Below are positions 35,135-50,113 of a stretch of DNA of 64,000 nt, piece by piece. Origin of the DNA: an uncultured Porphyromonadaceae bacterium (lineage in GTDB: Bacteria > Bacteroidota > Bacteroidia > Bacteroidales > Muribaculaceae); NCBI GenBank assembly GCA_946414395.1, contig CAMKOE010000004.1, forward strand, positions 1 through 64,000, written 5' to 3'. The position numbers and the translations under genes were made by a program. Position 1 is the stretch's first letter; each line of letters starts with the position of its first letter. Under the pieces are notes generated by a model, which searched no databases, had not been told where the DNA came from, and saw only the letters and a list, made by a program, of their open reading frames with translations.

Positions 35135-35153
35135 TTGATTTCTGTCATTGACT

Positions 35154-35906: not shown

Positions 35907-35920
35907 TTTTTGGCATGTTT

Positions 35921-35952: not shown

Positions 35953-36013
35953 CAGACTGTTAATTGCTTTTTTGCGTTTGAGTAACTGACAGATAAGATT
36001 ATTGTTTTTAAAT

Positions 36014-36256
36014 ATGAATATTCAAGAATTTTTAGAGAATTTTGCAGAACAGTTCGACGATACCGATGCCGAGGCCTTTGCTCCCGAAACCAAGTTCAGG
36101 GAACTTGATGAGTGGTCATCGCTGACGGCGCTCTCGATCATTGCCATGGTCGATGATGAATATGATGTCATCATCAAGGGCAATGACATCCTCGGGTCTG
36201 AGACTATCCAGGACTTATACAATATTGTAGAGGAAAAAGTTCAATCCAAGAATTAA
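36014..36256 (+). CDS. Acyl carrier protein A (EWSSL type)
   Basis: This 80-residue acidic helical protein is an acyl carrier protein. The phosphopantetheine site reads LDEWSSLTAL, so Ser36 is the attachment residue and the usual Asp before it (DSL) is Ser35. It is closely related to ACP C (42796-43029), which shares the same change, and less so to ACPs B and D, which keep Asp. It is first in the promoter-led operon 36014-42610. Its last base is shared with the ATG of ACP B. It probably carries an intermediate of a short acyl group destined for the polysaccharide. Confidence 0.9.
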   Translation: MNIQEFLENFAEQFDDTDAEAFAPETKFRELDEWSSLTALSIIAMVDDEYDVIIKGNDILGSETIQDLYNIVEEKVQSKN

Positions 36257-36486
36257 TGGACGAGCAGGTCAAACAAATAATTGCCAACGTCCTGAATGTG
36301 GACCTCAACGTGATTACCGCCGAATTGTCCTCGGGTGACATTCCCGAGTGGGATTCGGTCGGCAATCTCGCAATCATCAGCACACTGGAGCAGGAACTCG
36401 GAATCGAGTTCCCGCTGGAGGACCTGTTCGATCTGAATTCGGTCCGAGCCCTCATTGACGAGGTTAATAAAATCAAGAATGATTGA
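36256..36486 (+). CDS. Acyl carrier protein B
   Basis: This 76-residue acyl carrier protein has a canonical site, PEWDSVGNLAII, with Asp33 and phosphopantetheine Ser34. Helix 2 and the acidic surface that docks partner enzymes are evident. It is translationally coupled to ACP A (one-base overlap) and overlaps the ligase gene by 8 bases. The tight link to the ligase suggests that ligase loads this ACP. Confidence 0.92.
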   Translation: MDEQVKQIIANVLNVDLNVITAELSSGDIPEWDSVGNLAIISTLEQELGIEFPLEDLFDLNSVRALIDEVNKIKND

Positions 36487-37942
36487 TGCGCCCCACAGTC
36501 GTCTCCTTCGGGCGGTGATAGGTCATGCTCAGGCCATGCCTGGCAAGATTGCCCTTGTCGAGGGAACACGACGTGTGACATACTCCCAACTGATCTCCAA
36601 TGTGGAGAAAGTTGCAGGCTACCTGTCTCTCCTTGGCCTCAAGCCGGGCGATACCATACTGCTTGCAGCGCAAAAGGAGGTAGAGTTCATATATCTCTAT
36701 CTTGCAGCCCATCTGCTTGGTATCGTCAACGTGGTGGTGGATTCGGCCTCACCTGCCGATCGCATCGATTACATCATCTCTACGGTCGGCCCTGCCGCCA
36801 AGTTTGGCACCATCTTGAAGGTGAACCGTCCTGATTTCACGCCGTTTAGCGAAGTGCTTCCCGACTTGGTCACTCCCTCGCTTGCCATGCGTGAAATCCA
36901 CTCCACCGATGTCGCCGATGTGATGTTCACGACTGGCACAACGGGTGCCCCCAAGGGCGTATGCCTTTCTCATGACAATATTGCCGGATCGGCATGCAAC
37001 ACCAATGGCTTCATCGGCACGAGGGCCGATGATGTCGAGGCCTTGGCACTGCCTTTGAGTCACTCCTTTGGTTTGGGGCGGATGCGTTGCGTGCTCATGG
37101 CTGGCGCCACATTGGTTCTGGTGGGCAGTTTCGCCAATCTCAAGGCTTTCTTCCAGGTTTTGGAGGCTGAGCACGTGACGGGATTTGGCATGGTACCTGC
37201 GGTTTGGCAGTATATCAAGCGGATAAGCGGTACGCGTATTTCCAAGTTCGCTAGCCAGATTCGATACATCGAGTTTGGCAGTGCTGCTTTGCCTGTGGCC
37301 GATAAACGATTGCTCATGGACATCTTCCCGCACACCCGCCTGTGCATGCACTACGGATTAACCGAGGCTTCCCGCGCTATCTTCAGCGAGTTCCATGCCT
37401 GCGCCGACAATCTCGAAACCATTGGGCAACCCGCTTCAAGTCTGGTTCAGGTCCGCATTCTCGATGAGGATGGACAACCGGTCGAGGACGGAACCGATGG
37501 CGAAATCTGTGTGCACGGCAATATGGTGACCCGCACCTATTATCTGCCGTCTGACAACCAGGGTGCTTTCTTCGGCGATTGGTTCAGGACCGGTGACTGG
37601 GGACATCGCAGTCCTCAAGGCGATTTCTATCTCACCGGCCGCAAGAAGGAACTGATCAACGTCGGTGGCGAGAAAGTGAGCCCCGCTGCGATCGAGCAGG
37701 CCATCATGGCCCTCGGAATCAAGGATTGCGCTTGTGTGCCAATTCCCGACCCGAAAGGCGTTTTGGGAGAAGTGCCCAAGGCATTTCTGGTCAAGTCCGA
37801 CCCCCTCATGACCATCGAGGAGGTGAAAAAACAGTTAATCCAGGTCCTCCCGGCCCACGAGGTTCCCGTGGAGTGGGAATGGGTTGACAGTATCCCACGG
37901 ACATCATCGGGTAAAATCCAACGCTTGAAACTTAAGAATTAA
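36479..37942 (+). CDS. Acyl-activating enzyme (AMP-dependent synthetase/ligase)
   Basis: This 487-residue ANL-superfamily enzyme adenylates a carboxylic acid and transfers it to CoA or an ACP thiol. The phosphate loop is FTTGTTGAPKG (residues 150-160), followed by YGLTEASRAIF, FRTGDWG and TGRKKELINVGGEKVSP. The C-terminal catalytic lysine is in TSSGKIQRLK (about Lys479). With two ACP genes directly before it, loading onto ACP is likely. V. cholerae O1 uses an analogous ligase and ACP (RfbL, RfbK) for its tetronate side chain. The acid substrate is unknown. Confidence 0.92.
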   Translation: MIDAPHSRLLRAVIGHAQAMPGKIALVEGTRRVTYSQLISNVEKVAGYLSLLGLKPGDTILLAAQKEVEFIYLYLAAHLLGIVNVVVDSASPADRIDYIISTVGPAAKFGTILKVNRPDFTPFSEVLPDLVTPSLAMREIHSTDVADVMFTTGTTGAPKGVCLSHDNIAGSACNTNGFIGTRADDVEALALPLSHSFGLGRMRCVLMAGATLVLVGSFANLKAFFQVLEAEHVTGFGMVPAVWQYIKRISGTRISKFASQIRYIEFGSAALPVADKRLLMDIFPHTRLCMHYGLTEASRAIFSEFHACADNLETIGQPASSLVQVRILDEDGQPVEDGTDGEICVHGNMVTRTYYLPSDNQGAFFGDWFRTGDWGHRSPQGDFYLTGRKKELINVGGEKVSPAAIEQAIMALGIKDCACVPIPDPKGVLGEVPKAFLVKSDPLMTIEEVKKQLIQVLPAHEVPVEWEWVDSIPRTSSGKIQRLKLKN

Positions 37943-37959
37943 CAATTACGTTACCACAT

Positions 37960-39021
37960 ATGTCACAATTAACCATTAATAATGTGCGCATCTCTGGCAT
38001 GAGTGCCTGTGTGCCTGCCACTGTCGAGGACAACCGCACCTTATCAATCTATAAGGATGAGAACGAGGCTCTCAAGGTGATCGCGTCAACCGGCATCGAA
38101 CGTCATCACAAGGTGGATCCCGGCACCACGGCATCCGACTTGACGGTCAAGGCAGTCGAGGGCTTGCTCAAGGATCTGGACTGGCAGCCGCAGGATATAG
38201 ACTGTTTTGCCTACGTCTGCACTTCCAGGGACTTCATCGCCCCACAGACGGCCTGCGTCCTGCAAGACCGCCTCAAGTTGCGCAGTGACTGTTGCGTGTT
38301 CGATCTTCCCTTTGGCTGCTCGGGATGGGTCTATGGCATGAGCATTGTGTCCTCACTGATGTCTCATGGCACCTTCAAGCGCGCTATCCTCGTCGCAGCC
38401 GAGACCAATACCCTCAACCGCAGCCAGCGCGACACGACGGTGCGCCCATTGTTCGGTGATGCCGCTACCGCAACTGCGCTCGAGTATGACCCCGAACACT
38501 CAAGGCCCATGAATTTCATGTATGGAGTTGACGGCAGTGGATACGAGGCCGTTTGGGCCCCTTATGGCGGCATGCGTCATCCTGTCACCCACGAGGCACT
38601 TGAGGAAAAAGAGGTTTCTCCCGGTGTCTTCCGTCGCGGTGTGGATATGATTGTCAATGGCATGGATGTGTTTGGCTTTGCCATCAAACAGCCCCCTCGT
38701 TCCCTCAAGGAGTTGATTGCGACTTTCAACATCGATGTCGATTCGGTTGACTTGCTGCTGCTGCACCAGGCCAACAAATTCATTGATGAGAAGATACGCA
38801 AGGCCGTCAAGATTCCGGCCGAGAAGACCCCCTACTGTCTGGAGGAATACGGCAATGTCACTAGTGCGTCAATTCCCTTGACCATGGTATCGAGGTGTGG
38901 CGAGCGACTGGCTGGCGAGGATCAGCACTGCATCGCCTGTGGCTTTGGCGTCGGCCTGGCATGGGCAAGCATGGAGTTCTATGCCGGCAATGTGAAGATA
39001 AGCCCAATAATAACCTACTGA
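37960..39021 (+). CDS. KAS III-like enzyme 1
   Basis: This is a 353-residue thiolase-fold protein of the beta-ketoacyl-ACP synthase III family. The catalytic triad is intact: Cys120 in PFGCSGW, His269 in LLLHQANK and Asn299 in EEYGNVTSASIP. The glycine-rich C-terminal GFGVGLAWASMEF is typical. FabH-like enzymes either start fatty acid synthesis by Claisen condensation or, in secondary metabolism, transfer acyl groups to sugars. Here the neighbours (ACPs, ligase, ATP-grasp, aminotransferase) suggest a dedicated short acyl chain. It is paralogous to the enzyme at 43135-44184. Confidence 0.92.
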   Translation: MSQLTINNVRISGMSACVPATVEDNRTLSIYKDENEALKVIASTGIERHHKVDPGTTASDLTVKAVEGLLKDLDWQPQDIDCFAYVCTSRDFIAPQTACVLQDRLKLRSDCCVFDLPFGCSGWVYGMSIVSSLMSHGTFKRAILVAAETNTLNRSQRDTTVRPLFGDAATATALEYDPEHSRPMNFMYGVDGSGYEAVWAPYGGMRHPVTHEALEEKEVSPGVFRRGVDMIVNGMDVFGFAIKQPPRSLKELIATFNIDVDSVDLLLLHQANKFIDEKIRKAVKIPAEKTPYCLEEYGNVTSASIPLTMVSRCGERLAGEDQHCIACGFGVGLAWASMEFYAGNVKISPIITY

Positions 39022-39041
39022 TTGTGAAATTACACCCTCTG

Positions 39042-40142
39042 ATGGTACAATATATCAACACAAACAAGGAATTTCACTGGGGCGACTGGTATTTCAAGTC
39101 CCACGTGATGCCGGCCGATTTTGATTACAAGGCCCACAAGAAGGAGTTGTCGCCCTACTACGAGCAGCGGGGTTTCAAGGTGTCAATGATGTTTGACGAT
39201 TACTTCTCGCGGCTCAATGGCATCCACAGCGACCGTTACCTCTCGATGGACTTGTACTACTTCTTTGTCATCCCGGCACTCAACCGTCATGATTTCAAGG
39301 ATGCCTATCTGGACAAGAACATCTACAGTGAGTTGTTCCCCAGTGTCAAGCAGCCCGTATCGATCGTCAAGAACATTCACGGTCATTTCTATCGTGATGG
39401 CGAGGAAATCTCTCTTGATGAGGCCGTCGCTGCCGTTGCTCATGCCCAGGGCGAGTTGATGATTAAGCCCACAGTGGAAACATGCAATGGTGAGGGGGTG
39501 GAGCAGGTCAAGGATTTTGACCCGATGGCAGTCAAGGCGCTTTTTGCCCAGTACGGCATCAATTTCATCGTTCAGGAGAAGGTGAAGCAGCATCCCGACT
39601 TGCAGCGTGTCAATCCCACGTCACTCAACTCGATGCGCCTCTACACCTATCGCAGGCTTGACGGTTCCTACCATTTCCTTTATCCCTATGCCCACATGCG
39701 CTTCGGTGGCAAGAATGCCATCAAGGACAACGTGTCGCAGGGTGGGGGAACCTGCCTGATTCATGCCGATGGCCGTGTGGATGACCGGGTCTATCGCTTC
39801 AAGAGCATGGAGGTCTCCTCGCTCAAGCGAGAGACCGGTGTCGAGAATCTGGTGATTCCCTGCTATCAGGCTGTTATTGATACCTTGATAGCCATGCACA
39901 AGCGTTTGCCCTACTTTGACTTCGTGGGTTGGGACGTGACGGTTTTGCCCAGTGGCGAGCCACTGCTCATCGAGTTTAACCTCGTTCCCAGCGTTGAGGG
40001 ACCCCAGATGATGGCTGGCCCCATGTTTGGCGAGTTCCTGGATGAGGTGATACAACGCGCCGCTCAGGTCGAGTGCGTGAAGATGCAGACTTTCAAGAAG
40101 ACTTTTGATAAGGACATGTCCTTCCTGCTGCACATGCAGTAA
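39042..40142 (+). CDS. Sugar-transfer associated ATP-grasp protein
   Basis: This 366-residue protein matches the ATP-grasp family found in capsule and O-antigen loci. GELMIKPTVETCNGEGV holds the ATP-binding lysine, FIVQEKVKQHP the hinge, and FVGWDVTVLPSGEPLLIEFN the metal-binding Asp/Glu/Asn. ATP-grasp enzymes join a carboxylate to an amine, hydroxyl or thiol. In this locus it could ligate an acyl or amino-acid group to a sugar or carrier. ATG 39042 is chosen; a GTG at 39024 is possible. Longer frames overlap the KAS III gene and look artefactual. Confidence 0.88.
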   Translation: MVQYINTNKEFHWGDWYFKSHVMPADFDYKAHKKELSPYYEQRGFKVSMMFDDYFSRLNGIHSDRYLSMDLYYFFVIPALNRHDFKDAYLDKNIYSELFPSVKQPVSIVKNIHGHFYRDGEEISLDEAVAAVAHAQGELMIKPTVETCNGEGVEQVKDFDPMAVKALFAQYGINFIVQEKVKQHPDLQRVNPTSLNSMRLYTYRRLDGSYHFLYPYAHMRFGGKNAIKDNVSQGGGTCLIHADGRVDDRVYRFKSMEVSSLKRETGVENLVIPCYQAVIDTLIAMHKRLPYFDFVGWDVTVLPSGEPLLIEFNLVPSVEGPQMMAGPMFGEFLDEVIQRAAQVECVKMQTFKKTFDKDMSFLLHMQ

Positions 40143-40179
40143 TACAGGGCATGCCACAGCAATATAAGTATTATAGCAA

Positions 40180-40755
40180 GTGATAATCAGTCAAGTGGTC
40201 AATACGGTTTTCAACTCATGCAGTTATGTCATTTCCAGGGGCGATGCCTCGTGGATGGTGGACTGTGGAGACGTTGACAGGATTGTGCCGCTGCTTCATG
40301 GCCGCCTGCAGGGTGTGCTGCTCACCCATGCCCATTTTGACCACATCTACGGGCTGAATCACTTGATGGCCATGTTCCCGGATGTTCCTGTTTTCACCAA
40401 CAGGGACGGGCGTGAGGGTCTCCTCAGCGATAAACTGAATTTCTCCAGATATCATGAGAAGCCCTTCATTCTCAACTCTCCAGGCAATATCCGTCTGGTG
40501 GAGGACGGCCAGAGTTTTGACCTGTTTGAAAACTACAGCGTTAAGGCGATATATACTCCTGGCCACAGTCCCGGTTGCGTGACCTGGGTGACCGGTGATG
40601 CGATTTTTACAGGCGACAGTTACATTCCCGGTGTCAAGACCGTGACCATTTTGCCTCATTCCGACAAGGAGATGGCAGCCAGCAGCGAGGACCTTATCCG
40701 GTCAATGGTCAATGGACGTCAGGTCTATCCGGGACATCCGTCTCAATTACAGTAA
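40180..40755 (+). CDS. Metallo-beta-lactamase-fold hydrolase (possible thioesterase)
   Basis: This 191-residue protein has the metal-binding motif THAHFDH (residues 49-55), His129 in YTPGHSPG, Asp146 in FTGDSY and His186 near the C-terminus. All five ligands of a two-metal glyoxalase II-like site are present. Glyoxalase II itself cleaves a thioester, and MBL-fold thioesterases release ACP-bound products in some polyketide systems, so ACP off-loading is a reasonable hypothesis here. The start is GTG, preceded by no good alternative ATG. Confidence 0.88.
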   Translation: MIISQVVNTVFNSCSYVISRGDASWMVDCGDVDRIVPLLHGRLQGVLLTHAHFDHIYGLNHLMAMFPDVPVFTNRDGREGLLSDKLNFSRYHEKPFILNSPGNIRLVEDGQSFDLFENYSVKAIYTPGHSPGCVTWVTGDAIFTGDSYIPGVKTVTILPHSDKEMAASSEDLIRSMVNGRQVYPGHPSQLQ

Positions 40756-40776
40756 TTTAACAAATAATCAGTATAT

Positions 40777-41916
40777 ATGGAAAACAAAAAGGTTTTACTC
40801 TGTTTGGCTCACATGAGCGGTCAAGAAATGAAGTATATCCAGGAAGCGTTTGACACCAACTGGGTAGTACCTCTCGGACCCAATGTGAACGCCTTTGAAG
40901 AGGATCTCGAGCAACTATGTGGCGAGGGTAAGCGTGTCGTGGCATTGAGTTCTGGCACAGCGGCCATTCATCTGGCCCTAGTGAAATTGGGCGTGGGTCG
41001 TGACGATGAGGTGATTTGCCAGTCGATGACATTCTCGGCTAGCGCCAACCCCGTGACCTATCAGGGCGGAGTGCCCGTGTTTGTCGATAGTGAGCGTGAC
41101 ACGTGGAATATTGACCCGAACCTGCTTGAGGACGCCATTAAGGACCGCATAGCCAAAACGGGCCGCAAACCCAAGGCAATCATACCGGTCTATCTGTATG
41201 GTATGCCTGCCCGCATCGATGATATTATGGAAATTGCTCGCCGCTACGAGATACCAGTCGTGGAGGATTCGGCCGAGGCCTTCGGTTCGCGTTATCGCGG
41301 GCAGTTGTGCGGCACCTTCGGTGATTTTGGCATTATGAGTTTCAATGGTAACAAGATGATCACCACCAGTGGCGGTGGCGCGCTCATTTGTCCTGATGAG
41401 GAGGCCAAGAAGAAGGTCATGTTCTATGCCACCCAGTCGCGTGAGCCCATGCCCTATTACCTGCACAAGGAGATCGGCTACAATTACCGCATGAGCAACA
41501 TCTGCGCCGGTATCGGCCGTGGACAGATGACAGTCCTTGATGAGCATCTGGCCCATCACAAGCACCTGTGTGACAGATATGTGGAACTCTTTGCCGATAT
41601 TGATGGCATTGACGTGCACGTCAACTGCGACGAGCGTTCCGACAGCAATTACTGGCTGAACACGATTTTGATCGACCCCGTGAAGACGGGTACCGACTAT
41701 GAGACCGTCCGTCAGCACTTGGACGCTTGTAACATCGAGTCCCGCCCGTTGTGGAAACCCATGCACACCCAGCCTGTATTTGCTGGCGCTCCTGCCTACG
41801 TCAACGGTGTGAGTGAGGAACTCTTCGGCAAGGGACTGTGCTTGCCCAGCGGACCATGGGTCAGCGACGAGGATGTTGAGCGGGTGGCTCGTGAGATCAT
41901 TTCTTGCTGCAAGTGA
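40777..41916 (+). CDS. DegT/DnrJ/EryC1 sugar aminotransferase
   Basis: This 379-residue PLP-dependent enzyme aminates 4-keto (or 3-keto) nucleotide sugars. LSSGTAAIHLAL binds phosphate, VVEDSAEAFGS carries Asp164, and SFNGNKMITTSGGGAL contains the Schiff-base Lys193. It resembles PglE-type transaminases that make UDP-4-amino-4,6-dideoxy-GlcNAc. A PglD-like acyltransferase follows within 53 bases and a PglC-like transferase lies upstream, so a bacillosamine-type sugar is likely. The matching UDP-sugar 4,6-dehydratase is not in the window. Confidence 0.94.
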   Translation: MENKKVLLCLAHMSGQEMKYIQEAFDTNWVVPLGPNVNAFEEDLEQLCGEGKRVVALSSGTAAIHLALVKLGVGRDDEVICQSMTFSASANPVTYQGGVPVFVDSERDTWNIDPNLLEDAIKDRIAKTGRKPKAIIPVYLYGMPARIDDIMEIARRYEIPVVEDSAEAFGSRYRGQLCGTFGDFGIMSFNGNKMITTSGGGALICPDEEAKKKVMFYATQSREPMPYYLHKEIGYNYRMSNICAGIGRGQMTVLDEHLAHHKHLCDRYVELFADIDGIDVHVNCDERSDSNYWLNTILIDPVKTGTDYETVRQHLDACNIESRPLWKPMHTQPVFAGAPAYVNGVSEELFGKGLCLPSGPWVSDEDVERVAREIISCCK

Positions 41917-41968
41917 TAATGTGGATATTTCTTGACTTTTTATTTATTGACTTTTAAACGATTGAATT

Positions 41969-42610
41969 ATGAATATCGCAATATATGGCGCAGGTGGCTT
42001 CGGTAAGGAGGTCGCTTGTCTGATCGAGAGGATTAACGCTCATGGTGGAAACTGGAACCTTATTGGCTTCTTTGATGACACCAAGCCCATGGGAACGCCT
42101 GTCTCGCGCTATGGCAATGTCTTGGGTGGTATGGACACGCTGCTGCAGGTCGATGAGCCGCTGGCCATCTCTATCGCCATCAACGACAACCGTGCTGTGC
42201 GCCGTATCCGCGAGAGCATCAACAATACTAAGATTTCCTTCCCCAACTTGATTGACCCCTCGTTGTTCCTTGTCGATCCCTCCACGGTGATTATGGGCGA
42301 GGGCAACATCATTCAGAATCATTGCATGATTTCGTGTGACGTGACGATAGGTAACTTCAATCTCATCAACGACCATGTTGTGGTGGGACACGATAACGTC
42401 ATCGGTGACTTCAACGGGCTCATGCCAGGTGCCCATCTGTCGGGAGGAATCACCATCGGCAATAACAACCTGTTGGGAGTCGCCAGTGTGGTATTGCAGG
42501 GCATGGTTATCGGCAATGGAGTGACCCTGGGTGCCAACAGCGTGCTCATGACACAACCCCGTGATAATTTCACTTATTTGGGCGTTCCGGCCAAGAAATT
42601 TGATTTTTGA
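41969..42610 (+). CDS. PglD-like sugar N-acyltransferase
   Basis: This 213-residue left-handed beta-helix acyltransferase starts with a Rossmann-like segment, MNIAIYGAGGFGKEVACLIE, then hexapeptide repeats with VVGHDNVIGDFNGLMPGAHL, where His is the probable base. The C-terminal LGVPAKKFDF is typical. It closely resembles the second half of the fusion at 33878-35134. It probably acylates the amino group installed by the preceding DegT enzyme. The donor may be acetyl-CoA or, given the surroundings, an acyl-ACP. It ends the first ACP operon. Confidence 0.93.
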   Translation: MNIAIYGAGGFGKEVACLIERINAHGGNWNLIGFFDDTKPMGTPVSRYGNVLGGMDTLLQVDEPLAISIAINDNRAVRRIRESINNTKISFPNLIDPSLFLVDPSTVIMGEGNIIQNHCMISCDVTIGNFNLINDHVVVGHDNVIGDFNGLMPGAHLSGGITIGNNNLLGVASVVLQGMVIGNGVTLGANSVLMTQPRDNFTYLGVPAKKFDF

Positions 42611-42722
42611 AAAAATCTATCTGAAATGATAGTATGACAAAAGTTTTTCCCGTGTGAATTAACATGTTGTGTGAAGCAGAAAGTTGAATCCTTCATTCCA
42701 TCGAAGAAGATAATTCCACCAA

Positions 42723-42757
42723 TTGTGAAAGTGTTTTAAAAAAAATAACTACTTTTG
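42723..42757 (+). promoter_or_regulatory. Promoter of the second ACP operon
   Basis: TACTTTTG (42750-42757) is a full -7 match. TTGTG at 42723-42727, about 22 bases upstream, serves as a somewhat loosely spaced -33. The leader before ACP C would be about 32 bases. Confidence 0.65.
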
Positions 42758-42795
42758 CAAAAATAACTGAAAGGATTCTGCGTTAGATTAATGAA

Positions 42796-43029
42796 ATGAA
42801 TCTAGATTTGTTCATAGAGAATTTTGCGGATCTGCTCGATGAAACAGACCCCGACACTATACATGCCAACACTCATTTCAAGAAATTGAACGAGTGGTCT
42901 TCACTTGTGGCCTTGTCGGTCATTGCCATGATTGACGAGGAATATGATGTTGAATTCCGTGGCGATGACATTCGCAACAGTACCACTATTGAAGATTTAT
43001 TTAATATCGTGAAGTCAAGGGTAGAGTGA
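42796..43029 (+). CDS. Acyl carrier protein C (EWSSL type)
   Basis: This 77-residue acyl carrier protein has the site LNEWSSLVAL; Ser36 should bear phosphopantetheine and Ser35 replaces the usual Asp. It aligns well over its full length with ACP A (for example ENFADLLDETD versus ENFAEQFDDTD), indicating a duplication. It starts the second promoter-led operon and precedes the second KAS III-like gene, mirroring the ACP A/KAS III arrangement. Confidence 0.9.
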   Translation: MNLDLFIENFADLLDETDPDTIHANTHFKKLNEWSSLVALSVIAMIDEEYDVEFRGDDIRNSTTIEDLFNIVKSRVE

Positions 43030-43134
43030 TGGATTGTCAATTGGTAATCGAGCCCAGTCATCATGTCAACTGATGGCTCTTTGCTTGATTGTCATAACTG
43101 AGTTCTTGTATAAACCTTCATTAGCCTTAATTTT

Positions 43135-44184
43135 ATGGCAAAAATCACATTCCAGGGTGTCGGCATCAAGGCCTTAAGTGCTTGTGTCCCATCTGATATC
43201 GTTAGCAATAAGGACCTGGGTTACCTCATCCCCGAAGAGGAAATCAGCAAGGTGATTGATAATATAGGCATCGTGGAGCGTCGCATCGCCCCCGATGATG
43301 TGACCGCGAGCGACTTGTGTTACAGTGCCGCCCAGCGATTGATGCAAGACAACGGCATCGCCCCCGACAGCATTGATGTCCTGATTTTCATGAGCCAGAC
43401 AGGGGACTACCGCATCCCGGCCACCTCCTGCATCATGCAGCACCGCCTGGGACTCCCCAAGTCAACGATGTGTTTTGATATCTCGCTGGGTTGTTCGGGT
43501 TACTTGTTTGCCTTGAGCACGGCCTTTGCCTATGCCTCGATGGAGGGCATCAACAGGGTGCTGCTGCTCGATGGTGAGACTTTTTCCAAAATTGTTAATC
43601 GACGTGACAAGGTGGATTGGCCCCTCTATGGTGATGCCGGAACGGCAACGCTCATCGAGAAAGGCGATTACGGAAGTTCGACATTCATACTGAATACCGA
43701 CGGCTGCGGTGAGGATGCGATTAAGATACACGCTGGGATGCGCAATCCCGTAACAGCCGACTCCTGTGTCGAGCGCGAACAGGAAGACGGCAACGTCCGC
43801 AACGACCTGGAAGTCTTCATGGATGGCATGGACGTTTTCAATTTCGCCATCAGCAAGGTTCCCAAGTGCGTGAAGCAGTTGCTCAGCGAGACCGACCACA
43901 CGATTGACGATGTGGATTATCTCGTTTTCCACCAGGCCAACCGCTTCATGATGGACTTCTTTGTCAAGAAACTCAAGATTGCTCCCGACCGTGTTCCCTA
44001 CTGCATCGGCAAGTATGGCAACACCAGCAGCACTTCCATCCCCTTGACGGTCGCTAGTGAACTGAATGGACGCCTGGATGGCGACCACACTGTTGTCATG
44101 AGTGGGTTTGGCGCGGGCTTGAGTTGGGGAGCGGCCCTCTTGCAGATGCGCGATTGCAAGGTTTCTCCTGTCTTTGATTATTAA
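43135..44184 (+). CDS. KAS III-like enzyme 2
   Basis: This 349-residue FabH-family protein has a complete triad: Cys120 in SLGCSGY, His266 in VFHQANR and Asn296 in GKYGNTSSTSIP. GFGAGLSWGAALL is the C-terminal glycine loop. It is clearly related to KAS III-like enzyme 1 (same spacing to Cys120, similar C-terminus ending VSPVFDY versus ISPIITY). Its stop overlaps the VOC start by one base, and FkbH and ACP D lie in the same operon. A condensing or acyl-transfer step using glyceryl-ACP is plausible. Confidence 0.92.
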   Translation: MAKITFQGVGIKALSACVPSDIVSNKDLGYLIPEEEISKVIDNIGIVERRIAPDDVTASDLCYSAAQRLMQDNGIAPDSIDVLIFMSQTGDYRIPATSCIMQHRLGLPKSTMCFDISLGCSGYLFALSTAFAYASMEGINRVLLLDGETFSKIVNRRDKVDWPLYGDAGTATLIEKGDYGSSTFILNTDGCGEDAIKIHAGMRNPVTADSCVEREQEDGNVRNDLEVFMDGMDVFNFAISKVPKCVKQLLSETDHTIDDVDYLVFHQANRFMMDFFVKKLKIAPDRVPYCIGKYGNTSSTSIPLTVASELNGRLDGDHTVVMSGFGAGLSWGAALLQMRDCKVSPVFDY

Positions 44185-44603
44185 TGGACAATTTTCTCTC
44201 GTTCCATCACATTGGCATTGCATGCCGACAGATTGCCAGGACCCAGGCATTCTATGAGGCGATGGGCTATGACGCTTCACCTGTCGTTGATGATCCCATC
44301 CAGCATGTGCGCGTGTGCTTCCTGACCAAGGCTGGTGAACCTTGTGTTGAACTGCTGGAGCCGCTCGACGGGGAAAGCCCCGTGGCGCGCATTCTGGCAA
44401 CGGTCGGCGTGTCGCCCTACCACATGTGCTACAAGGTTGACGACATTGCCGCTGCTGTAGCCCGCCTGCGTGAGCAGCGCTTTCTGCTGGTGAGCGGTCC
44501 CGTGCCTGCCTGTGCGATGGGCCAGCGTCGAGTGGCGTTCCTGTTTAACAAAAATGTGGGGCTCATCGAGTTGGTTGAGTCCAGTCCTGTTGCCATTGAG
44601 TGA
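44184..44603 (+). CDS. VOC (glyoxalase/methylmalonyl-CoA epimerase-like) protein
   Basis: This 139-residue protein has two beta-alpha-beta-beta-beta modules of the vicinal oxygen chelate fold. Candidate metal ligands are His8/His9 in FHHIGIA, Glu in CVELLEPL, His in PYHMCYKV and Glu in GLIELVES, the same order as in methylmalonyl-CoA epimerase. Such enzymes handle 2-substituted acyl thioesters, so epimerising or isomerising an ACP- or CoA-bound acyl group is a sensible guess. It overlaps KAS III 2 by one base and the next gene by about 8. Confidence 0.85.
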   Translation: MDNFLSFHHIGIACRQIARTQAFYEAMGYDASPVVDDPIQHVRVCFLTKAGEPCVELLEPLDGESPVARILATVGVSPYHMCYKVDDIAAAVARLREQRFLLVSGPVPACAMGQRRVAFLFNKNVGLIELVESSPVAIE

Positions 44604-45639
44604 AATTCTGTTGACATATATCGTCCCTGTGTACAACACCGAAGCCTATGTGCTGCGGTGTTTGCAATCTATTGCTGACCAAGGTCTTGACTCTGCTGAA
44701 TATGAGGTGATTGTCGTTGATGACGGTTCTACCGACGCCTCTAGAGCCGTCGTGGAAACCTTTGCGGCAGACCATCCCTCCATCCGCCTCTTGAGCCAGC
44801 CCAACCAGGGAGTGAGCGTTGCCCGCAATTTGGCCTTGGACAATGCCCGAGGCCGTTATATTCAGTTTGTTGACAGTGACGACTATCTCTTGCCTGGCAA
44901 GATGCAAGTGCTGCTGCGGCGAGCGCTGGACGAGCGCCTTGATGTGCTGCTGTTTAATTTCAGCAACATCGATTCCGATGGCAATCCTTTACCCCAGGCC
45001 CAGGACAACGTTTTTCCCTCGACACAGGTCTCCACGGGCCCAGAATTCCTTGACACCCACCCAATGACGCCCTACGTATGGCGCTTTCTCATCCGCCGCG
45101 GTTTTTTTGAGCAAGGCAATGACTACCTGGGACCTGAACGCGGTTGGCGACGCGGCTGGCGGTTCGACACTTCGCTCATCGTGTGTGAGGATGGCGCTCT
45201 GATTGCCCGTTTCATGTTGGATGCTGGGCGTATGGCCTATGACGACACTGTTGTCTATTGTTATGTGGACCGTGGCGATAGCGCGATGCACAGCATTGAC
45301 TTGAATCACATCGCCAGGCGTCTTCACAGTCAGGTGGATTCGGCCGCTTCGATTGATGGAACCATTAGTCGCTATGAGTCGCAATCGGGACGGCGTGCCC
45401 CTGCCAGTGTCGCTGGCATCAGAAATGTGTACCTGTACTTCTCGATGACCAAGGCCTTGACCTGCGGCCTCGTTGACGACGTGCTGCAGCACATCAGGCA
45501 AGTGGGCCTTTTCCCGTTCCCCTGCATTGGTCCAGAGGCCAATTACGGCGGAGCGCGGTGGAAGGTGATTCACTGGCTGATGATGCGTCCGGCCATCTGG
45601 AAGGCTTTAAGTAAAATATATCGATTGATCAGAAAGTAG
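44596..45639 (+). CDS. Family 2 glycosyltransferase
   Basis: This GT2 enzyme of about 347 residues has LTYIVPVYNTEAYVLRCLQS, VIVVDDGSTDASRAVVE and FVDSDDYLLPG. No ATG is suitably placed. TTG at 44596 (overlapping the VOC stop) or TTG at 44611 is the likely start, so the 5' limit is uncertain by 5 codons. Its position between the VOC and FkbH genes ties one glycosyl transfer to the acyl pathway. The C-terminal part is predicted cytosolic with a basic end. Confidence 0.87.
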   Translation: MSEILLTYIVPVYNTEAYVLRCLQSIADQGLDSAEYEVIVVDDGSTDASRAVVETFAADHPSIRLLSQPNQGVSVARNLALDNARGRYIQFVDSDDYLLPGKMQVLLRRALDERLDVLLFNFSNIDSDGNPLPQAQDNVFPSTQVSTGPEFLDTHPMTPYVWRFLIRRGFFEQGNDYLGPERGWRRGWRFDTSLIVCEDGALIARFMLDAGRMAYDDTVVYCYVDRGDSAMHSIDLNHIARRLHSQVDSAASIDGTISRYESQSGRRAPASVAGIRNVYLYFSMTKALTCGLVDDVLQHIRQVGLFPFPCIGPEANYGGARWKVIHWLMMRPAIWKALSKIYRLIRK

Positions 45640-45641
45640 TG

Positions 45642-47234
45642 ATGACGACTTTTGTCTTTCGCAATCAGACGGTTGAGCCCTTTCTCGGCTATGACGGCAT
45701 GACCTACTCGGGCTATGACGACATCAGCCAGACGCCCACAAGCGTTGACCGGTATATATGGTTCTATCAGGTCCCTGTCAATCCCGATGCGTGCCAGTTG
45801 GCCCGGGAAATTGATTCTTATAGCGATAAACTTGACCTTGTGCTGTCTGGAATCACCCAGGATAGGCCATTTGTCGTTTTCTCGTTGGTAAATCTTTTCC
45901 CATTGAAGTTCACTGGAAAAGACAATCAAGTCGCTGAAGCCATTACAGGCTTCAATCAGCACATCGCCCGCTTGGCGATGGAACGTCCCAATGTCAAGTG
46001 GGTGGATTTCTCCGGTTTTACGGGCCGTTATGCCGCCGATGCCTTGGTGGACTGGAAATACTATCTCATGTCACAGACGCTGCTCAATCCCAAGTTGGCC
46101 AAGCCCTTCCACGACTGGTGGTCCGGTATCGAGCGGGAATTGATGATGCAGCGCAAGAAGTGCCTCGTGCTCGACCTGGACAATACGTTGTGGGGTGGGG
46201 TGCTCGGCGAGGATGGCATCGATGGCATTCAACTGGGAGGCGACTATCCCGGCAAGGCCTTTACCTACTGGCAGCGCTCTCTGCTGCAGTTGGCTCACAA
46301 TGGTGTGATTCTGGCTGTGTGCAGCAAGAACAACGAGGCCGACGTCGATGAGGCATGGCGGGTGAATCCCCACATGGTGCTCAAGCGCGAACACTTCAGC
46401 GCCTTGCGCATCAACTGGCAAGACAAGGCCACCAACATCCGCCAACTGGCCGACGAACTCAACATCGGCCTTGACAGCATGGTCTTCCTGGATGACAATC
46501 CTGCCGAGCGTGAACTGGTCAGGCAGATGCTTCCACAGGTCGAAGTTCCGGATTTTCCCGAGAAACCTTACCTGCTCATTCCATTCTTCAAGCAACTGGT
46601 TGAAAAATACTTTATGGCCTATGACGTGACCGACGAGGACCGCAGCAAGACCGAGCAGTATCGTGCCAACGCCCTTCGCCGTGCCGAGCAGGCGCGCTTC
46701 ATCGACCTCGACAGTTATCTCTACAGTCTTGACATCTCACTCGATATCCTGCCGGCCGACGAGCACAACCTGCCGCGCATTGCCCAGATGACCCAGAAGA
46801 CCAACCAGTTTAACCTGACCACGCGCCGCTATACCGAGAGCGACGTGCGTCATCGGCTCGATCAGGGTTGGCGCGTTTATTGCATGCGGGTGAGTGACCG
46901 GTTCGGTGATAGTGGCATTACAGCAGCGATTTTCCTTCAACCCGTTGGAGACGATGCCGTGAACATCGACAACTTGCTGCTCAGTTGCCGCATCCTGGGC
47001 AAGGGCATCGAGGAGGCTTTTGTCAAGACGGTGCTCAACCTGATGCGCCTCGATGGGGTGAAAAAGGTCATGGCCGATTACCTGCCCACGGCCAAGAATG
47101 GCCAGACGGCCGACTTCTATGACCGAATGGGGCTGACGTGTGTCCGCGTCGGCGACGATGGAGCCAGACATTACGAGTTGGACTTGACTAGTGTTTATGA
47201 AATCAAGAATTGTTATAACATAAGGGTATTATGA
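45642..47234 (+). CDS. FkbH-like HAD protein (glyceryl-ACP synthase type)
   Basis: This 530-residue protein has the FkbH architecture: an N-terminal SGNH-like region, a HAD domain with LVLDLDNTLWGG (Asp178, Asp180), CSKNN and FLDDNPAE, and a C-terminal GNAT-like region from about residue 380. FkbH proteins dephosphorylate 1,3-bisphosphoglycerate and load the glyceryl group onto an ACP as a thioester. Length matches the longer FkbH forms. The stop overlaps the start of ACP D, the obvious partner. A GTG one codon upstream is also possible as start. Confidence 0.92.
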   Translation: MTTFVFRNQTVEPFLGYDGMTYSGYDDISQTPTSVDRYIWFYQVPVNPDACQLAREIDSYSDKLDLVLSGITQDRPFVVFSLVNLFPLKFTGKDNQVAEAITGFNQHIARLAMERPNVKWVDFSGFTGRYAADALVDWKYYLMSQTLLNPKLAKPFHDWWSGIERELMMQRKKCLVLDLDNTLWGGVLGEDGIDGIQLGGDYPGKAFTYWQRSLLQLAHNGVILAVCSKNNEADVDEAWRVNPHMVLKREHFSALRINWQDKATNIRQLADELNIGLDSMVFLDDNPAERELVRQMLPQVEVPDFPEKPYLLIPFFKQLVEKYFMAYDVTDEDRSKTEQYRANALRRAEQARFIDLDSYLYSLDISLDILPADEHNLPRIAQMTQKTNQFNLTTRRYTESDVRHRLDQGWRVYCMRVSDRFGDSGITAAIFLQPVGDDAVNIDNLLLSCRILGKGIEEAFVKTVLNLMRLDGVKKVMADYLPTAKNGQTADFYDRMGLTCVRVGDDGARHYELDLTSVYEIKNCYNIRVL

Positions 47235-47455
47235 ATTTGGAAGAGAAAATTTTGGGAATCATGCGTGAGGTGTTTGACACCACTGATGTCAACGAGCAGA
47301 CGTCTCAGCGCAATTGTGAGAACTGGGACTCGCTGCGCCATCTCTCGCTCGCATCCGAGTTAGAGGAAGCCTTTGACATCGAACTTGAACCAGAGGAAAT
47401 CGGCCAGATGACCGACTTCTCGCGTGTTGTGGAAACCGTCAGGGCCAAGCAATGA
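47231..47455 (+). CDS. Acyl carrier protein D
   Basis: This 74-residue acyl carrier protein has a canonical site, NCENWDSLRHLSL, with Asp33 and phosphopantetheine Ser34. It overlaps FkbH by four bases (ATGA), the same coupling seen for FkbH/ACP pairs in polyketide clusters, so it is the probable glyceryl acceptor. It closes the acyl region; the next gene is unrelated. Confidence 0.93.
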   Translation: MNLEEKILGIMREVFDTTDVNEQTSQRNCENWDSLRHLSLASELEEAFDIELEPEEIGQMTDFSRVVETVRAKQ

Positions 47456-47544
47456 CCTCTCTCGTCAATGTGATGTGATTACATGCGGCGCAAGGGCAAT
47501 GACATCCTTGTGCCGTTCATTTTTCTTGAATTGGTGCTTCTTTT

Positions 47545-48600
47545 ATGAAATATTTGTTCCGTTTGATATCCATTATAGCGGCCTTTGTCCTGCTCTTCGC
47601 GGCCTATGGCGGGCGTGTGGACCCCAATGTGTGGACCTTGCCCTCGCTGGCTACCCTGGCCCTGCCTGCTGTGGCCATCATGGTGGTTGCCCTGTTGCTG
47701 CTGCTGGCGTTGTTCAGGCAGTGGCGGTCGGCGGTTGTCCTTGCTGCGGCCTTGCTGCTGTCGTGGCCCACTTTGAAGTTGATCTGCCCGTTCAATCTCT
47801 CACATCAGTCAGCACACCAGGGGCGACCCCAACTCAAGGTCATTACCATGAACGTCACCCAGTTCAACTGGCAGGATGGCGCCACCAAACCCAGTGAGAA
47901 CATGCGCTACCTTCTCGATCAAGACGCCGATATCGTCGTGATTCAGGAAGGGCTGGTTTATTTCTCCTATGAGAAGACCAAGACAGTTGTTCCCATGCTC
48001 GATGAACTTTACAAGAAATATCCCTACCGCAAGAAGCATTTCTTTGACGTCGGCATCCTCTCCAAGTATCCTTTTACCGAGGTGCAATCCCCTGTGCTGG
48101 CTCAGGACAGCCTGGGCTATTTCATCAAGGCCTGGGACGTGGATGCGCCCGGTGGTAGCATCAGGGTGATGAGTATGCACTTGAGTTCCCTGCGTTTCAC
48201 GACCAACGACAGCCAACTCATCGAGTCGATGAATGTCCCGTCGGGGCGCAAGCAGCGCATTGAATCGGTCACCCGCAAACTCGATCATGGCTTTATCTCC
48301 CATGCGCGCCAGGCTGCGGCCATGAGGCAGGTGATCGATGAGTCGCCTGGCGACATCCTGGTCATGGGTGACATGAACGACACACCCGGCTCATTTGCCT
48401 ATCGCAAGATCTGCGGCGAAGACCTGCGTGATGCCTGGGCCGATGCGGGACTGGGACCCACCTATACCTTTCATGATCATCACATGTATGTGAAAATTGA
48501 TCACATCCTGTATCGTGGCGACTTGAGGTTGCTGCAATGCCGGCGCGACAAGGAAGGGGAGAGCGACCATTATCCGCTGGTCGCCGTCTTTGAAAGGTGA
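47545..48600 (+). CDS. Membrane-anchored endonuclease/exonuclease/phosphatase family protein
   Basis: This 351-residue protein has two or three N-terminal hydrophobic segments (about residues 5-22, 33-58 and 65-85) and then an EEP catalytic domain. VITMNVTQFNW, VVIQEG (metal Glu), MSMHLSS, MGDMNDTPGS and the C-terminal SDHYPLVAVF are the conserved motifs. The domain probably faces the periplasm. EEP members cleave phosphodiesters in nucleic acids or phospholipids; the substrate is not evident. It lies 89 bases after ACP D and may be read through from that operon. Confidence 0.9.
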   Translation: MKYLFRLISIIAAFVLLFAAYGGRVDPNVWTLPSLATLALPAVAIMVVALLLLLALFRQWRSAVVLAAALLLSWPTLKLICPFNLSHQSAHQGRPQLKVITMNVTQFNWQDGATKPSENMRYLLDQDADIVVIQEGLVYFSYEKTKTVVPMLDELYKKYPYRKKHFFDVGILSKYPFTEVQSPVLAQDSLGYFIKAWDVDAPGGSIRVMSMHLSSLRFTTNDSQLIESMNVPSGRKQRIESVTRKLDHGFISHARQAAAMRQVIDESPGDILVMGDMNDTPGSFAYRKICGEDLRDAWADAGLGPTYTFHDHHMYVKIDHILYRGDLRLLQCRRDKEGESDHYPLVAVFER

Positions 48601-48676
48601 GTCCGGCAACTCGCTTTTACACACTAAAAAGGCTCCTTTCCCGTTCTATACTATATAAACCGAATATAAAAGAACA

Positions 48677-50113
48677 ATGGCATTTAAGTCTATATTCTCA
48701 CTGCTGCTCGCCTCCGTCCTGATGCTGGTGGTCTGCTCGTCGTGTATCGAGGACGGTTTCACCACGTCATCCAGCGATGTGCTGGCGTTTAACAAGGACA
48801 CTGTGGCATTTGACACGGTGATAACCCTCCAAGGAACGGCCACCAAGCAGATGGTCATCTATAACCACAGCAAGAAGCAGATCAACATCTCCTCCATTAA
48901 GGTCGCCGGCCTGGCATCCAAGGGGCATTTCCATCTCAATGTGGATGGCGTGAGGGGCGATTCTTTCCAGAATGTCGAAATCCGTGGCAACGACTCAATC
49001 TATATCTTCATCGAGGCCTATCTCGACGAGATGGAACAGAACGAGCCCACGTTGCTTGAGGATCGCCTGGAGTTTGTCACCAATGGCGTGACCCAGAGTG
49101 TGCTGCTCAGCGCTTGGGGACAGGATGTGGTGCGCATCAATGGAGATACAATCAGGCGCAACACGCGCTTGACCGCTGTTAAGCCTTATCTCATCTATGA
49201 CACAATGTTTGTCTCGCCAGGTGCGACCTTGACCATCGACCCTGGCGCAACGCTACTCTTTCATGACAAGGCTGCCATCCGCTGCAAGGGGCGCATGCTG
49301 GCCAATGGCACTGTCGAGGAACCGATTACCTTCCGCGGCGACCGCCTGGATCATGTTGTGGGCACGACGAGTTTTGACGTGATGTCGGGACAGTGGGGTG
49401 GTGTCATTTTCTCGCCGACCAACAGAGTCACCAATGTGTTGAAGCATGTCGTCATGCGGGGTAGCAGCATCGGTATGCACTGCAGTCCAGACTATGTCGA
49501 TACGGTCAATTGTTCACTCAAACTCGTCAATTGTGTACTCACCAATTCGGCTTCGACCTGTCTGGCTACGGCTGCCTGCTATGTGCAACTCATTGGCACC
49601 GAAATCAGCGATGCGGCCGAGGAAGTCGCCTATTTTGCTGGCGGCAAGGTGATGGCCAGCCAGTGCACCTTCAGTAACAACTATTTGTTCGTGGCCCCCA
49701 CGTTGCCCCTCGTCAATATCTTTGACGTTGAGTTCACCGACGGCTCCATCGGGCGCATCAAGGCCTATTTTGACAATTGCATCCTCTACGGCCTCAGCCC
49801 CGAGATCAACGAGGGCACGCTCGATGATTTTGACGTCTATCTGCGCTATTGCCTGTTGAAGAGTTCGGGTAACGATGACGCCCACTTTATCAATTGCGTC
49901 TGGGAGGCCGACCCATGTTTCCTCACCTTGCGTGATGACCACTACTTTGATTACCGTCTGGGCAACGAGAGCGCTGCCATCGGCAAGGGAAATCCGGCAT
50001 TGTGTCCCGCCGAGGCCCGTTACGACCGCTACGGCAATGACCGCCTGGCTCGTGCGGCGATAGACCTGGGTGCCTATGTATGGAATTATATCGAAGAAGA
50101 AGAAAACCAGTAG
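48677..50113 (+). CDS. Lipoprotein with right-handed parallel beta-helix domain
   Basis: This 478-residue protein begins with a lipoprotein signal: LLASVLMLVVCSSC with lipidation probable at Cys23, followed by the acidic IED that resembles Bacteroidetes surface-export signals. An N-terminal beta domain (about 30-150) precedes a beta-helix region in which GATLTIDPGATLLFHDKAA and later turns repeat. The C-terminus includes an RYDRYGNDRLARAAIDLGAY segment typical of right-handed beta-helix proteins. It may bind or cleave polysaccharide, but no catalytic motif can be assigned. Confidence 0.8.
   Translation: MAFKSIFSLLLASVLMLVVCSSCIEDGFTTSSSDVLAFNKDTVAFDTVITLQGTATKQMVIYNHSKKQINISSIKVAGLASKGHFHLNVDGVRGDSFQNVEIRGNDSIYIFIEAYLDEMEQNEPTLLEDRLEFVTNGVTQSVLLSAWGQDVVRINGDTIRRNTRLTAVKPYLIYDTMFVSPGATLTIDPGATLLFHDKAAIRCKGRMLANGTVEEPITFRGDRLDHVVGTTSFDVMSGQWGGVIFSPTNRVTNVLKHVVMRGSSIGMHCSPDYVDTVNCSLKLVNCVLTNSASTCLATAACYVQLIGTEISDAAEEVAYFAGGKVMASQCTFSNNYLFVAPTLPLVNIFDVEFTDGSIGRIKAYFDNCILYGLSPEINEGTLDDFDVYLRYCLLKSSGNDDAHFINCVWEADPCFLTLRDDHYFDYRLGNESAAIGKGNPALCPAEARYDRYGNDRLARAAIDLGAYVWNYIEEEENQ

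Follow-up and report, generated by a model that had tools for sequence, protein, structure and literature searches.

In Flavobacterium psychrophilum the ketoacyl synthase (KAS) genes wfpC and wfpE, together with wfpD (an acyl carrier protein, ACP), wfpF (a reductase) and wfpG (a PglD homologue), are predicted to synthesise and transfer a 3,5-dihydroxyhexanoyl group, and the predicted product is an N-hydroxyacyl 4-amino sugar with this group on Qui2NAc4N (PMC6519341; published systems are described throughout from the accessible portions of the papers cited). The viosamine island of Pseudomonas syringae leads to an N-(3-hydroxybutyryl) amino sugar, as supported by a mutant and by mass spectrometry (PMC3927599). 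In Campylobacter jejuni 11168 di-O-methylglyceric acid is carried on the flagellar pseudaminic acid (PMC3068675), while strains 12664 and 12661 have no dimethylglyceric acid; the fkbH-domain gene cj1302 is a pseudogene in 12664, and 12661 is without cj1301, an annotated epimerase (PMC7099621). The link between these gene defects and the missing dimethylglyceric acid is a correlation that we draw ourselves, and the strains differ in other genes too. A literature search on FkbH with polysaccharide, ACP or flagellin glycosylation, outside which most subscription papers lay, returned no such system besides that of C. jejuni, and PMC3765264 likewise offered nothing about FkbH.

The cassette described here combines an FkbH-like protein with a KAS III (ketoacyl-ACP synthase III) in a stretch of 64,000 nucleotides (the window: positions 1 to 64,000 of contig CAMKOE010000004.1, assembly GCA_946414395.1) from an uncultured Porphyromonadaceae bacterium (Muribaculaceae), whose genome of 2.63 Mb in 78 contigs is 81% complete and holds one FkbH. 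Gene content, conserved active sites, module structure and relationships are read directly from the DNA, and all substrates and products named below are predictions from it. With middling confidence, we propose that an N-acyl group derived from glycerate is produced here and destined for a 4-amino sugar in a surface polysaccharide, the acyl being elongated by the KAS III termed KAS2 and then reduced.

The FkbH-ACP pair and its gene neighbourhood

The six genes that the initial annotation had placed at 42796–47455 lie there on the + strand, as do all genes given with coordinates below up to the end of the cassette, and belong to the families it had named. ACP_C (42796–43029; PP-binding), a carrier of the EWSSL type whose Ser36 is invariant in 46/46 rows, is the paired carrier of KAS2 (43135–44184; ACP_syn_III/_C). 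These are followed by a VOC protein (44184–44603), a GT2 glycosyltransferase (about 44596–45639 from a proposed TTG start; Glycos_transf_2, PF00535, 117 bits), the FkbH-like putative glyceryl-ACP synthase of 531 residues (45639–47234; TIGR01686, 283 bits against a cut-off of 147) and its partner ACP_D (47231–47455). Pfam gives no match at E 0.001 for FkbH or ACP_D, and the NCBIfam ACP matches of ACP_D are all below cut-off. The junctions had been described as mostly overlapping or of 2 bases; with the proposed GT2 start, KAS2/VOC, VOC/GT2, GT2/FkbH and FkbH/ACP_D indeed overlap by 1 to 8 bases, but ACP_C and KAS2 are separated by 105 bases.

Relatives were taken from a survey of FkbH loci comprising the best 80 of 177 confirmed stretches, in which gene labels are BLAST best hits to window genes rather than domain calls; some label sets also used ten reference genes from L042, L073, L074, L077 and L080. 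Asp179, Asp181 and Cys450 of FkbH are invariant in 82/82 rows and Ser34 of ACP_D in 81/81. When the FkbH proteins of five tetronate-type operons are included, 16 of 19 checked residues, picked as near-invariant in earlier alignments, are identical in 53/53 rows, among them the HAD aspartates D179 and D181 (DxDxT), the SKN stretch and C450 of the SCR stretch. The roles of the conserved residues discussed here for FkbH, KAS2, KAS1, SDR and VOC are those generally known for their families. Because these 16 residues are common to the window and the tetronate-type proteins, the FkbH chemistry is likely shared, which favours the earlier suggestion that FkbH and its own ACP make glyceryl-ACP. An ACP_D homologue is present in 80/80 loci; in 79 it follows FkbH within 29 bases, and the one in the Treponema locus L080 is 0.5 kb off, at a contig end.

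KAS2 is found in 69 of the 80 loci, a PglD-type gene in 61 and a DegT-family aminotransferase in 57 (BLAST against locus open reading frames). GT2 sits between VOC and FkbH in 35/80. The EWSSL ACP accompanies KAS2 in 67/69 loci and occurs in 0/11 loci without it; in the 44 distant loci, defined by an FkbH below 66% identity, the counts are 31/33 against 0/11 (P 1e-8). Similarly, the SDR (35151–35906; adh_short_C2, with Ser143, Tyr157 and Lys161 invariant in 40/40), a probable 3-oxoacyl-ACP reductase for the KAS III product, is present in 32/33 distant loci with KAS2 and in 0/11 without it (P 1.6e-9); these Fisher P values ignore the relatedness of the loci. The exceptions, L063 and L081 for the ACP and L081 for the SDR, lie at contig ends with 3.0 and 1.5 kb of upstream sequence, and in window-type loci the SDR is mostly beyond the fetched flank, so the count of 38 for all 80 loci is too low. 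KAS2, the EWSSL ACP and the SDR are one block. The typical distant order (L050, L051) is sugar transferase (SugTr)-NeuD-ACP-SDR-KAS2-VOC-FkbH-ACP_D-DegT, and Bacteroides fragilis Q1F2 (L064) displays SugTr-NeuD-ACP-SDR-KAS2-FkbH-ACP_D-MBL-DegT, where MBL is a metallo-beta-lactamase-fold gene. A cultured carrier is Odoribacter lunatus DSM 112344 (L072).

KAS2 is absent from 11 of the 80 loci, the minimal ones (L043 and L049) reading SugTr-NeuD-FkbH-ACP_D-DegT with nothing in between. An N-acyltransferase family gene lies directly upstream of FkbH or VOC-FkbH in 8 of these 11 loci, and none was seen at that position in L055, L060 and L077. A PglD/NeuD gene precedes FkbH in L042, L043, L049, L068 and L074 (L042, L049 and L074 by BLAST only), while in L073, a Bacteroides metagenome-assembled genome (MAG), a pseudaminic acid operon has VOC-FkbH-ACP inserted with PseH on one side and PseG-PseI on the other; PseH and PseI score over their cut-offs, PseC and PseG just under. 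L073 is thus a possible maker of glyceroyl-pseudaminic acid. An Antibiotic_NAT gene directly precedes VOC-FkbH in L054, and in L080 a DUF2172/DUF4910 protein (in two frames) and an AAC(3)-like Antibiotic_NAT are followed by VOC-FkbH. The joining of VOC-FkbH-ACP with the DUF4910 family in L080 is a likeness to the C. jejuni locus, whose Cj1295 presumably belongs to that family. Since three unrelated acyltransferase families adjoin one FkbH-ACP pair, gene content suggests that glyceryl-ACP is an acyl donor, and the locus content across relatives supports the earlier proposal that a surface glycan is decorated with an acyl drawn from it.

KAS genes without FkbH were reached by a phylum search of 395 genomes with KAS2 as query (E at most 1e-65), which matched 25, the window's own included; flanks were taken from 20 of the 24 others (all but G511, G518, G634 and G670). 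FkbH and VOC are found in 0/20 of these stretches, in which the neighbours of the KAS genes include an ACP (19 stretches), an SDR (18), a PglD-type gene (15), a sugar transferase (10) and a PglF/CapD match (2); L172, for example, reads SugTr-KAS-NeuD-ACP-KAS-SDR-DegT-PglF. The family search (247 genomes) used KAS2 alone as query, which avoids FkbH-based sampling, with a threshold of E 1e-110 set after the best FkbH-free KAS III of the phylum search had scored 7.8e-109. KAS2 passes in 18 genomes, and in 18/18 a window-type FkbH is no more than about 1.5 kb away on that contig. Window-type FkbH occurs in 19 family genomes, one of which (G767) is without KAS2 at that threshold. The dependence is one-way: KAS2 without FkbH in 0/18 genomes, FkbH without KAS2 in 1/19 genomes and 11/80 loci. 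KAS2 thus seems to need FkbH, while FkbH does not need KAS2, and the simplest reading of this asymmetry is that KAS2 elongates the glyceryl unit. Within the genus KAS2 is present in 15 of 26 listed members, own included. From its distribution, the FkbH-ACP pair looks like a glyceryl starter module added to a KAS III sugar pathway.

Across the order, 24 of 295 genomes have an FkbH, of whatever type, above the cut-off. Among the order-wide FkbH loci with flanks, 15/17 hold a different, mostly longer type (31–39% identical, BLAST), which usually lies beside an ACP, often with an MBOAT-like membrane O-acyltransferase and in some loci with SDR/MaoC or VOC genes (L111, L112, L119 and L122; similar-looking open reading frames in L114, L115, L120 and L123). 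MBOAT is confirmed by Pfam in 4/4 longer-type loci tested, and the annotation of Sinorhizobium L194 shows this pairing too; by analogy with Dlt, the longer FkbH and MBOAT perhaps form an O-acylation system fed by glyceryl-ACP. Another polysaccharide acyltransferase family accompanies FkbH on a Niveispirillum plasmid (L190), in the order FkbH-ACP-WcbI acetyltransferase-SDR. Two faecal records without annotation that are classed as phages (MT835480.1 and MT839313.1) also contain FkbH homologues, which may be phage-borne or belong to misfiled bacterial DNA. The FkbH proteins of L075 (Methanofastidiosia MAG) and L081 (Sedimentibacter, Bacillota MAG) are very similar, on short branches; the L075 archaeal assembly perhaps includes a misbinned contig.

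KAS2, VOC and the tetronate-type operons

KAS2 has the intact Cys-His-Asn ascribed to it in the initial annotation: Cys120, His266 and Asn296 are invariant in 70/70 rows from the FkbH loci. The first KAS tree comprised 85 of 141 rows, with 6 window-type loci kept, and the second 86 rows, with 4 long rows dropped and 5 tetronate-type sequences added. The KAS2 proteins of FkbH loci form a single clade (40 rows, support 100/99), sister to the KAS III of 11 FkbH-free loci (joint support 100/98), and KAS1, the other KAS III of the window, falls outside the KAS2 clade.

Comparators were obtained by tblastn of FkbH against plasmids (118 records), where 8 opened regions gave 5 tetronate-type operons (L192, L187–L189 and L193), so classed by gene content alone, their products being unproven. 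Four are on Streptomyces plasmids, with FAAL-acyl-CoA dehydrogenase-ACP-polyketide synthase (PKS)-KAS III-FkbH-ACP-phosphopantetheinyl transferase, an arrangement that we take to resemble the RK-682 type. The fifth, on Methylosinus pOB3b3, reads KAS III-FkbH-ACP-E2-monooxygenase-hydrolase-PKS, an order that matches the glycerate-utilisation genes named in PMC7489565. The KAS III proteins of the five comparators form a separate clade (100/100) and are 23–24% identical to KAS2, which shares 26% identity with E. coli FabH and 44–47% with three KAS III from FkbH-free sugar loci. Where KAS2 reads FHQAN, they display PPQL or TPQL, with Pro for the catalytic His in 5/5, and they contain an ESSKW stretch that is absent from KAS2. 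Because the window KAS III keeps its intact Cys-His-Asn and the tetronate-type enzymes have Pro for His, a tetronate is disfavoured. In contrast, a reduced 3-hydroxyacyl product would fit, because a ketoreductase-type SDR travels with KAS2. Thus the FkbH and the stand-alone ACP of the tetronate set proposed in the initial annotation are present, while its KAS III belongs to another clade, and Pfam matches no cassette gene to a PKS, an Agg4-like E2 or an Agg5-like hydrolase; tetronate-type joining is not supported, and the KAS chemistry is probably not shared with the comparators.

KAS2 is also without Trp32 and Arg151 of E. coli FabH, which we take to be CoA contacts, and has Lys39 and Lys159 instead. 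The loss of these residues hints at an ACP-bound primer.

The VOC protein is of the methylmalonyl-CoA epimerase kind (Glyoxalase_4), and its putative metal site, His9, Glu56, His80 and Glu129, is invariant in 67/67 rows. A plain methylmalonyl-CoA epimerase was rejected: TIGR03081 scores 68 bits, below its cut-off of 115, and Ile39 aligns where the human enzyme has the presumably catalytic Glu of its PEHG stretch. VOC is present in 66/80 FkbH loci, and an association with KAS2 was likewise discarded (58/69 loci with KAS2 against 8/11 without, P 0.40). That it acts on C2 of the glyceryl unit is a guess.

Proposed pathway and rival explanations

In the proposed pathway FkbH would take a glyceryl group from 1,3-bisphosphoglycerate and load it on ACP_D, and VOC, where present, might invert C2 of the glyceryl thioester. 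KAS2 would then elongate the glyceryl unit by condensing it with ACP_C-bound malonyl, and reduction of the keto group by the SDR would give, in the simplest case, 3,4,5-trihydroxypentanoyl-ACP. A PglD-type acyltransferase would move the acyl to the amine placed on a nucleotide sugar by a PglE-like aminotransferase, after which the initiating transferase could load the acylated sugar on the lipid carrier. Loci without KAS2, ACP_C and SDR would attach plain glyceroyl, and a second sub-cassette of the window (AMP-forming ligase, KAS1 and ATP-grasp) might contribute a further acyl or lengthen the chain. The cassette does not include the dehydratase that the amino sugar requires; a PglF-like protein occurs in 21/21 other genomes with such loci, a weak point since the family is common. 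In a fuller form, held tentatively and at somewhat under even confidence, Bacteroidales would have joined an antibiotic-type glyceryl-ACP module to a pathway of KAS III, ketoreductase and PglD; an initiating-type amino sugar would then bear on its 4-amine a polyhydroxy acyl, for example 3,4,5-trihydroxypentanoyl, or plain glyceroyl where the KAS block is missing. The acyl would be switchable and sugar-like, and would sit on the kind of residue that has a free amine in B. fragilis polysaccharide A (PSA).

Several observations weigh against an elongated glyceryl group on a 4-amino sugar. The own assembly has no strong PglF-type dehydratase, with only weak PF02719 matches in its 81% complete sequence, and a DegT/PseC-family match is found in only 8/20 FkbH-free KAS loci. 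PglD genes within 6.5 kb number one in 21, none in 12 and two in 0 of the 33 distant KAS2 loci, and at most one PglD gene favours a single acyl chain; yet six of the 12 PglD-less loci (L039, L046, L058, L070, L076 and L079) have full flank, and the one-PglD count of the relatives is inapplicable to the window, which holds three PglD-type units and two KAS III. The threshold of 1e-110 is post hoc, and what 18/18 shows is limited to KAS III with 52% identity or more, none of which occurs without FkbH. VOC is absent from 14/80 loci and does not track KAS2, and the tetronate-type KAS III keeps the Trp, which weakens the argument for an ACP-bound primer. The FkbH tree was built from 45 of 60 rows with 8 plasmid rows, and gains and losses were counted on 36 rows, L125 also being left out. 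On this tree the KAS2 block comes and goes, with 10 changes in the 36 rows, at least 6 of them forced by supported branches, and KAS2 presence is clustered no more than shuffled labels.

This gain and loss, together with an FkbH that works without KAS2, means that the glyceryl and the KAS2 product could be two acyl groups, which is the main rival to an elongated glyceryl. FkbH and ACP_D would then place plain glyceroyl on one amine or hydroxyl, and KAS2, ACP_C and SDR would place an acetyl-primed 3-hydroxyacyl, as in the vio and wfp systems, on another. The FkbH-ACP pair without KAS2 in 11/80 loci, the KAS genes without FkbH in 20/20 fetched loci of the phylum search, and the several PglD-type units of the window all speak for two groups; but in the family sample FkbH accompanies every KAS III with 52% identity or more (0/18 without it) and distant loci have at most one PglD gene, and we consider this explanation rather unlikely, albeit a serious one. 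A plain or methylated glyceroyl on an amino sugar is improbable. KAS2 would then only pass the acyl from ACP to sugar, as a shuttle or acyltransferase that is presumably CerJ-like; but CerJ-type enzymes have a Cys-His-Asp triad, which is not found in KAS2, as Asn296 completes its Cys-His-Asn in 70/70 rows. In addition, the SDR and an ACP of its own travel with KAS2, and an acyltransferase-family gene is already beside FkbH in 8/11 KAS2-free loci. The precedent for such a group is C. jejuni flagellin, which has di-O-methylglyceric acid on pseudaminic acid from a locus with cj1302 (PMC3068675, PMC7099621), and L080 pairs VOC-FkbH-ACP with DUF2172/DUF4910 and Antibiotic_NAT families.

The two remaining explanations are borrowed from polyketide chemistry, and both are very improbable. 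Tetronate formation as for RK-682 would require KAS2 to couple glyceryl-ACP with a beta-ketoacyl chain. FkbH, ACP and KAS III do adjoin one another as this would have it, but the comparator KAS III differs from KAS2 in clade, catalytic His and ESSKW, a reductase travels with KAS2, and the PKS, Agg4-like and Agg5-like genes are missing among the Pfam matches. Supply by FkbH of a hydroxy- or methoxymalonyl-type extender unit to KAS2 would agree with FkbH and ACP being the first steps of that route (PMC7489565); it was rejected, as the Pfam matches of the cassette genes include neither the pair of acyl-CoA dehydrogenase and 3-hydroxyacyl-CoA dehydrogenase nor an O-methyltransferase.

If the elongated glyceryl pathway is true, glycolysis would be linked through 1,3-bisphosphoglycerate and an acyl carrier protein to capsule chemistry, giving a route by which glycerate acyl groups, a building block better known from antibiotic pathways, reach surface sugars. 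A glycerate-derived acyl would mask a surface-sugar amine in various Bacteroidales, B. fragilis strain Q1F2 included. Free amines of this kind are considered important for how zwitterionic capsules act on the immune system (compare PMC10167101), so the cassette would offer a genetic marker that can be tested. As natural experiments, loci that have the KAS block and loci that lack it would tell an elongated acyl from glyceroyl.

Upstream genes and comparison with known systems

The six genes are real but form the tail of a longer run beginning near 33.3 kb (33261), whose upstream part (33261–42610) contains functional neighbours left outside the limits of the initial annotation. A 185-base gap before ACP_C possibly divides the run into two transcription units. 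The first gene, SugTr (33261–33878; Bac_transf, PF02397, 199 bits), a polyprenyl-phosphate sugar-1-phosphate transferase like the initiating enzymes PglC and WcfS, is likewise the first gene of the block in distant loci, L050, L051, L059 and L064 among them. It is followed by a gene composed of two fused PglD/NeuD units (33878–35134), a tandem left-handed beta-helix acyltransferase with 2 PglD_N and 2 hexapeptide stretches (NeuD_NnaD, 367 bits, cut-off 161), and by the SDR. At the downstream end of this part, the DegT-family, PglE-like sugar aminotransferase (40777–41916; PF01041, 311 bits) has a LegC family model as best NCBIfam match (363 bits, under the cut-off of 420) and, as nearest solved structures, 1o61 (309 bits) and 4ztc (304.5 bits), which we take to be C. 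jejuni PglE. The candidate acyl transferrer, a PglD/NeuD/VioB-type sugar N-acyltransferase (41969–42610; PglD_N and Hexapep; NeuD_NnaD 157 bits, just under the cut-off of 161), is nearest to the Neisseria pilin glycosylation protein 4m98, perosamine N-acetyltransferase and VioB among solved structures, with His141 aligned to the His of VDHD in 4m98.

Between the SDR and the aminotransferase, 36014–40142 is a second, separable sub-cassette, present in most window-type loci and missing from L002–L004, which probably makes another acyl. It comprises ACP_A (36014–36256, or from 36002; EWSSL type, PP-binding), ACP_B (36256–36486; PP-binding), an AMP-forming acyl/amino-acid ligase (36482–37942, start uncertain; AMP-binding, 232 bits) that perhaps loads ACP_B, KAS1 (37960–39021; profile match, with Cys120, His269 and Asn299 invariant in 40/40 rows) and a sugar-transfer associated ATP-grasp ligase (39012–40142, start uncertain; PF14397, 88 bits). 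The nearest solved structures of the AMP-forming ligase are a nonribosomal peptide synthetase adenylation domain and oxalate-CoA ligases, and the ATP-grasp ligase has no solved relative at E 0.1. A metallo-beta-lactamase-fold hydrolase (40180–40755; PF00753) is possibly an editing thioesterase; its role and that of VOC are guesses, and that of the sub-cassette is read from gene families. A housekeeping role for KAS1 and KAS2 was set aside, the genome having a further FabH above the curated cut-off on contig C37, apart from both; this FabH was outside the second KAS tree.

Downstream, a terminator-like hairpin (47485–47516, + strand; 12 pairs and a T-rich tail, by consensus match only) is a weak call, because 33000–48700 contains 15 such sites against 14.5 expected in shuffles. 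Profile matches to a glycosyltransferase, an EpsG-like protein, a UDP-sugar dehydrogenase, a chain-length/AAA protein, a glucose-1-phosphate cytidylyltransferase and a CDP-glucose 4,6-dehydratase place the cassette in polysaccharide surroundings in the window. Before the run, a glycerol-3-phosphate cytidylyltransferase-like domain is fused to a GFO_IDH_MocA oxidoreductase (31864–33198), adjoined at 30774 by a class V aminotransferase nearest to 2-aminoethylphosphonate transaminases, with a score below cut-off; L043 has open reading frames whose starts resemble these two.

Compared with described systems, the cassette resembles the F. psychrophilum wfpC–wfpG genes with pglE/pglF, a Bacteroidota surface-sugar locus with two KAS, an ACP, a ketoreductase, a PglD homologue and PglE; in contrast, the accessible text names no FkbH, second ACP or VOC (PMC6519341; compared by description). 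L172 is the locus most like it here, and its KAS III lies outside the KAS2 clade. The P. syringae viosamine island (vioA/vioB/vioS/vioR/acp) similarly has an aminotransferase, an acyltransferase, a KAS III, a ketoreductase and an ACP, but its seven genes, as described in the accessible part, include one ACP and no FkbH or VOC (PMC3927599). Tetronate glycerate-utilisation operons (mad7/8/16/17/18, in the accessible part of PMC7489565; L192, L187–L189 and L193) share FkbH and ACP with the same active-site residues, and differ in a KAS III of another clade without the catalytic His, in Agg4/Agg5-type genes (L192), in their PKS and in serving a secondary metabolite rather than a polysaccharide. 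The C. jejuni flagellin locus also has a glycerate acyl on a surface amino sugar and an fkbH-domain gene, although its sugar is a nonulosonate and its acyl is methylated (PMC3068675, PMC7099621; cj1302 compared by description). Neisseria PglB2 (GATDH, a 4-glyceramido sugar) provides a glyceroyl on the 4-amine of a bacillosamine-type sugar, but this is attributed to a distinct C-terminal domain, and the accessible text mentions no FkbH or ACP (PMC6959607). B. fragilis PSA, with WcfR/WcfS and UngD2, likewise has an aminotransferase and an initiating transferase with the dehydratase gene outside the operon; its sugar keeps the 4-amino group, and no acyl set is mentioned in the part available (PMC13063421). 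A KAS III with Cys-His-Asn and its own ACP and an SDR with Ser-Tyr-Lys are found here as in wfp/vio-type pathways, and a PglD/VioB N-acyltransferase and a 4-aminotransferase at family level only. Our verdict is that the cassette would be a wfp/vio kind of pathway with an added glycerate starter module.

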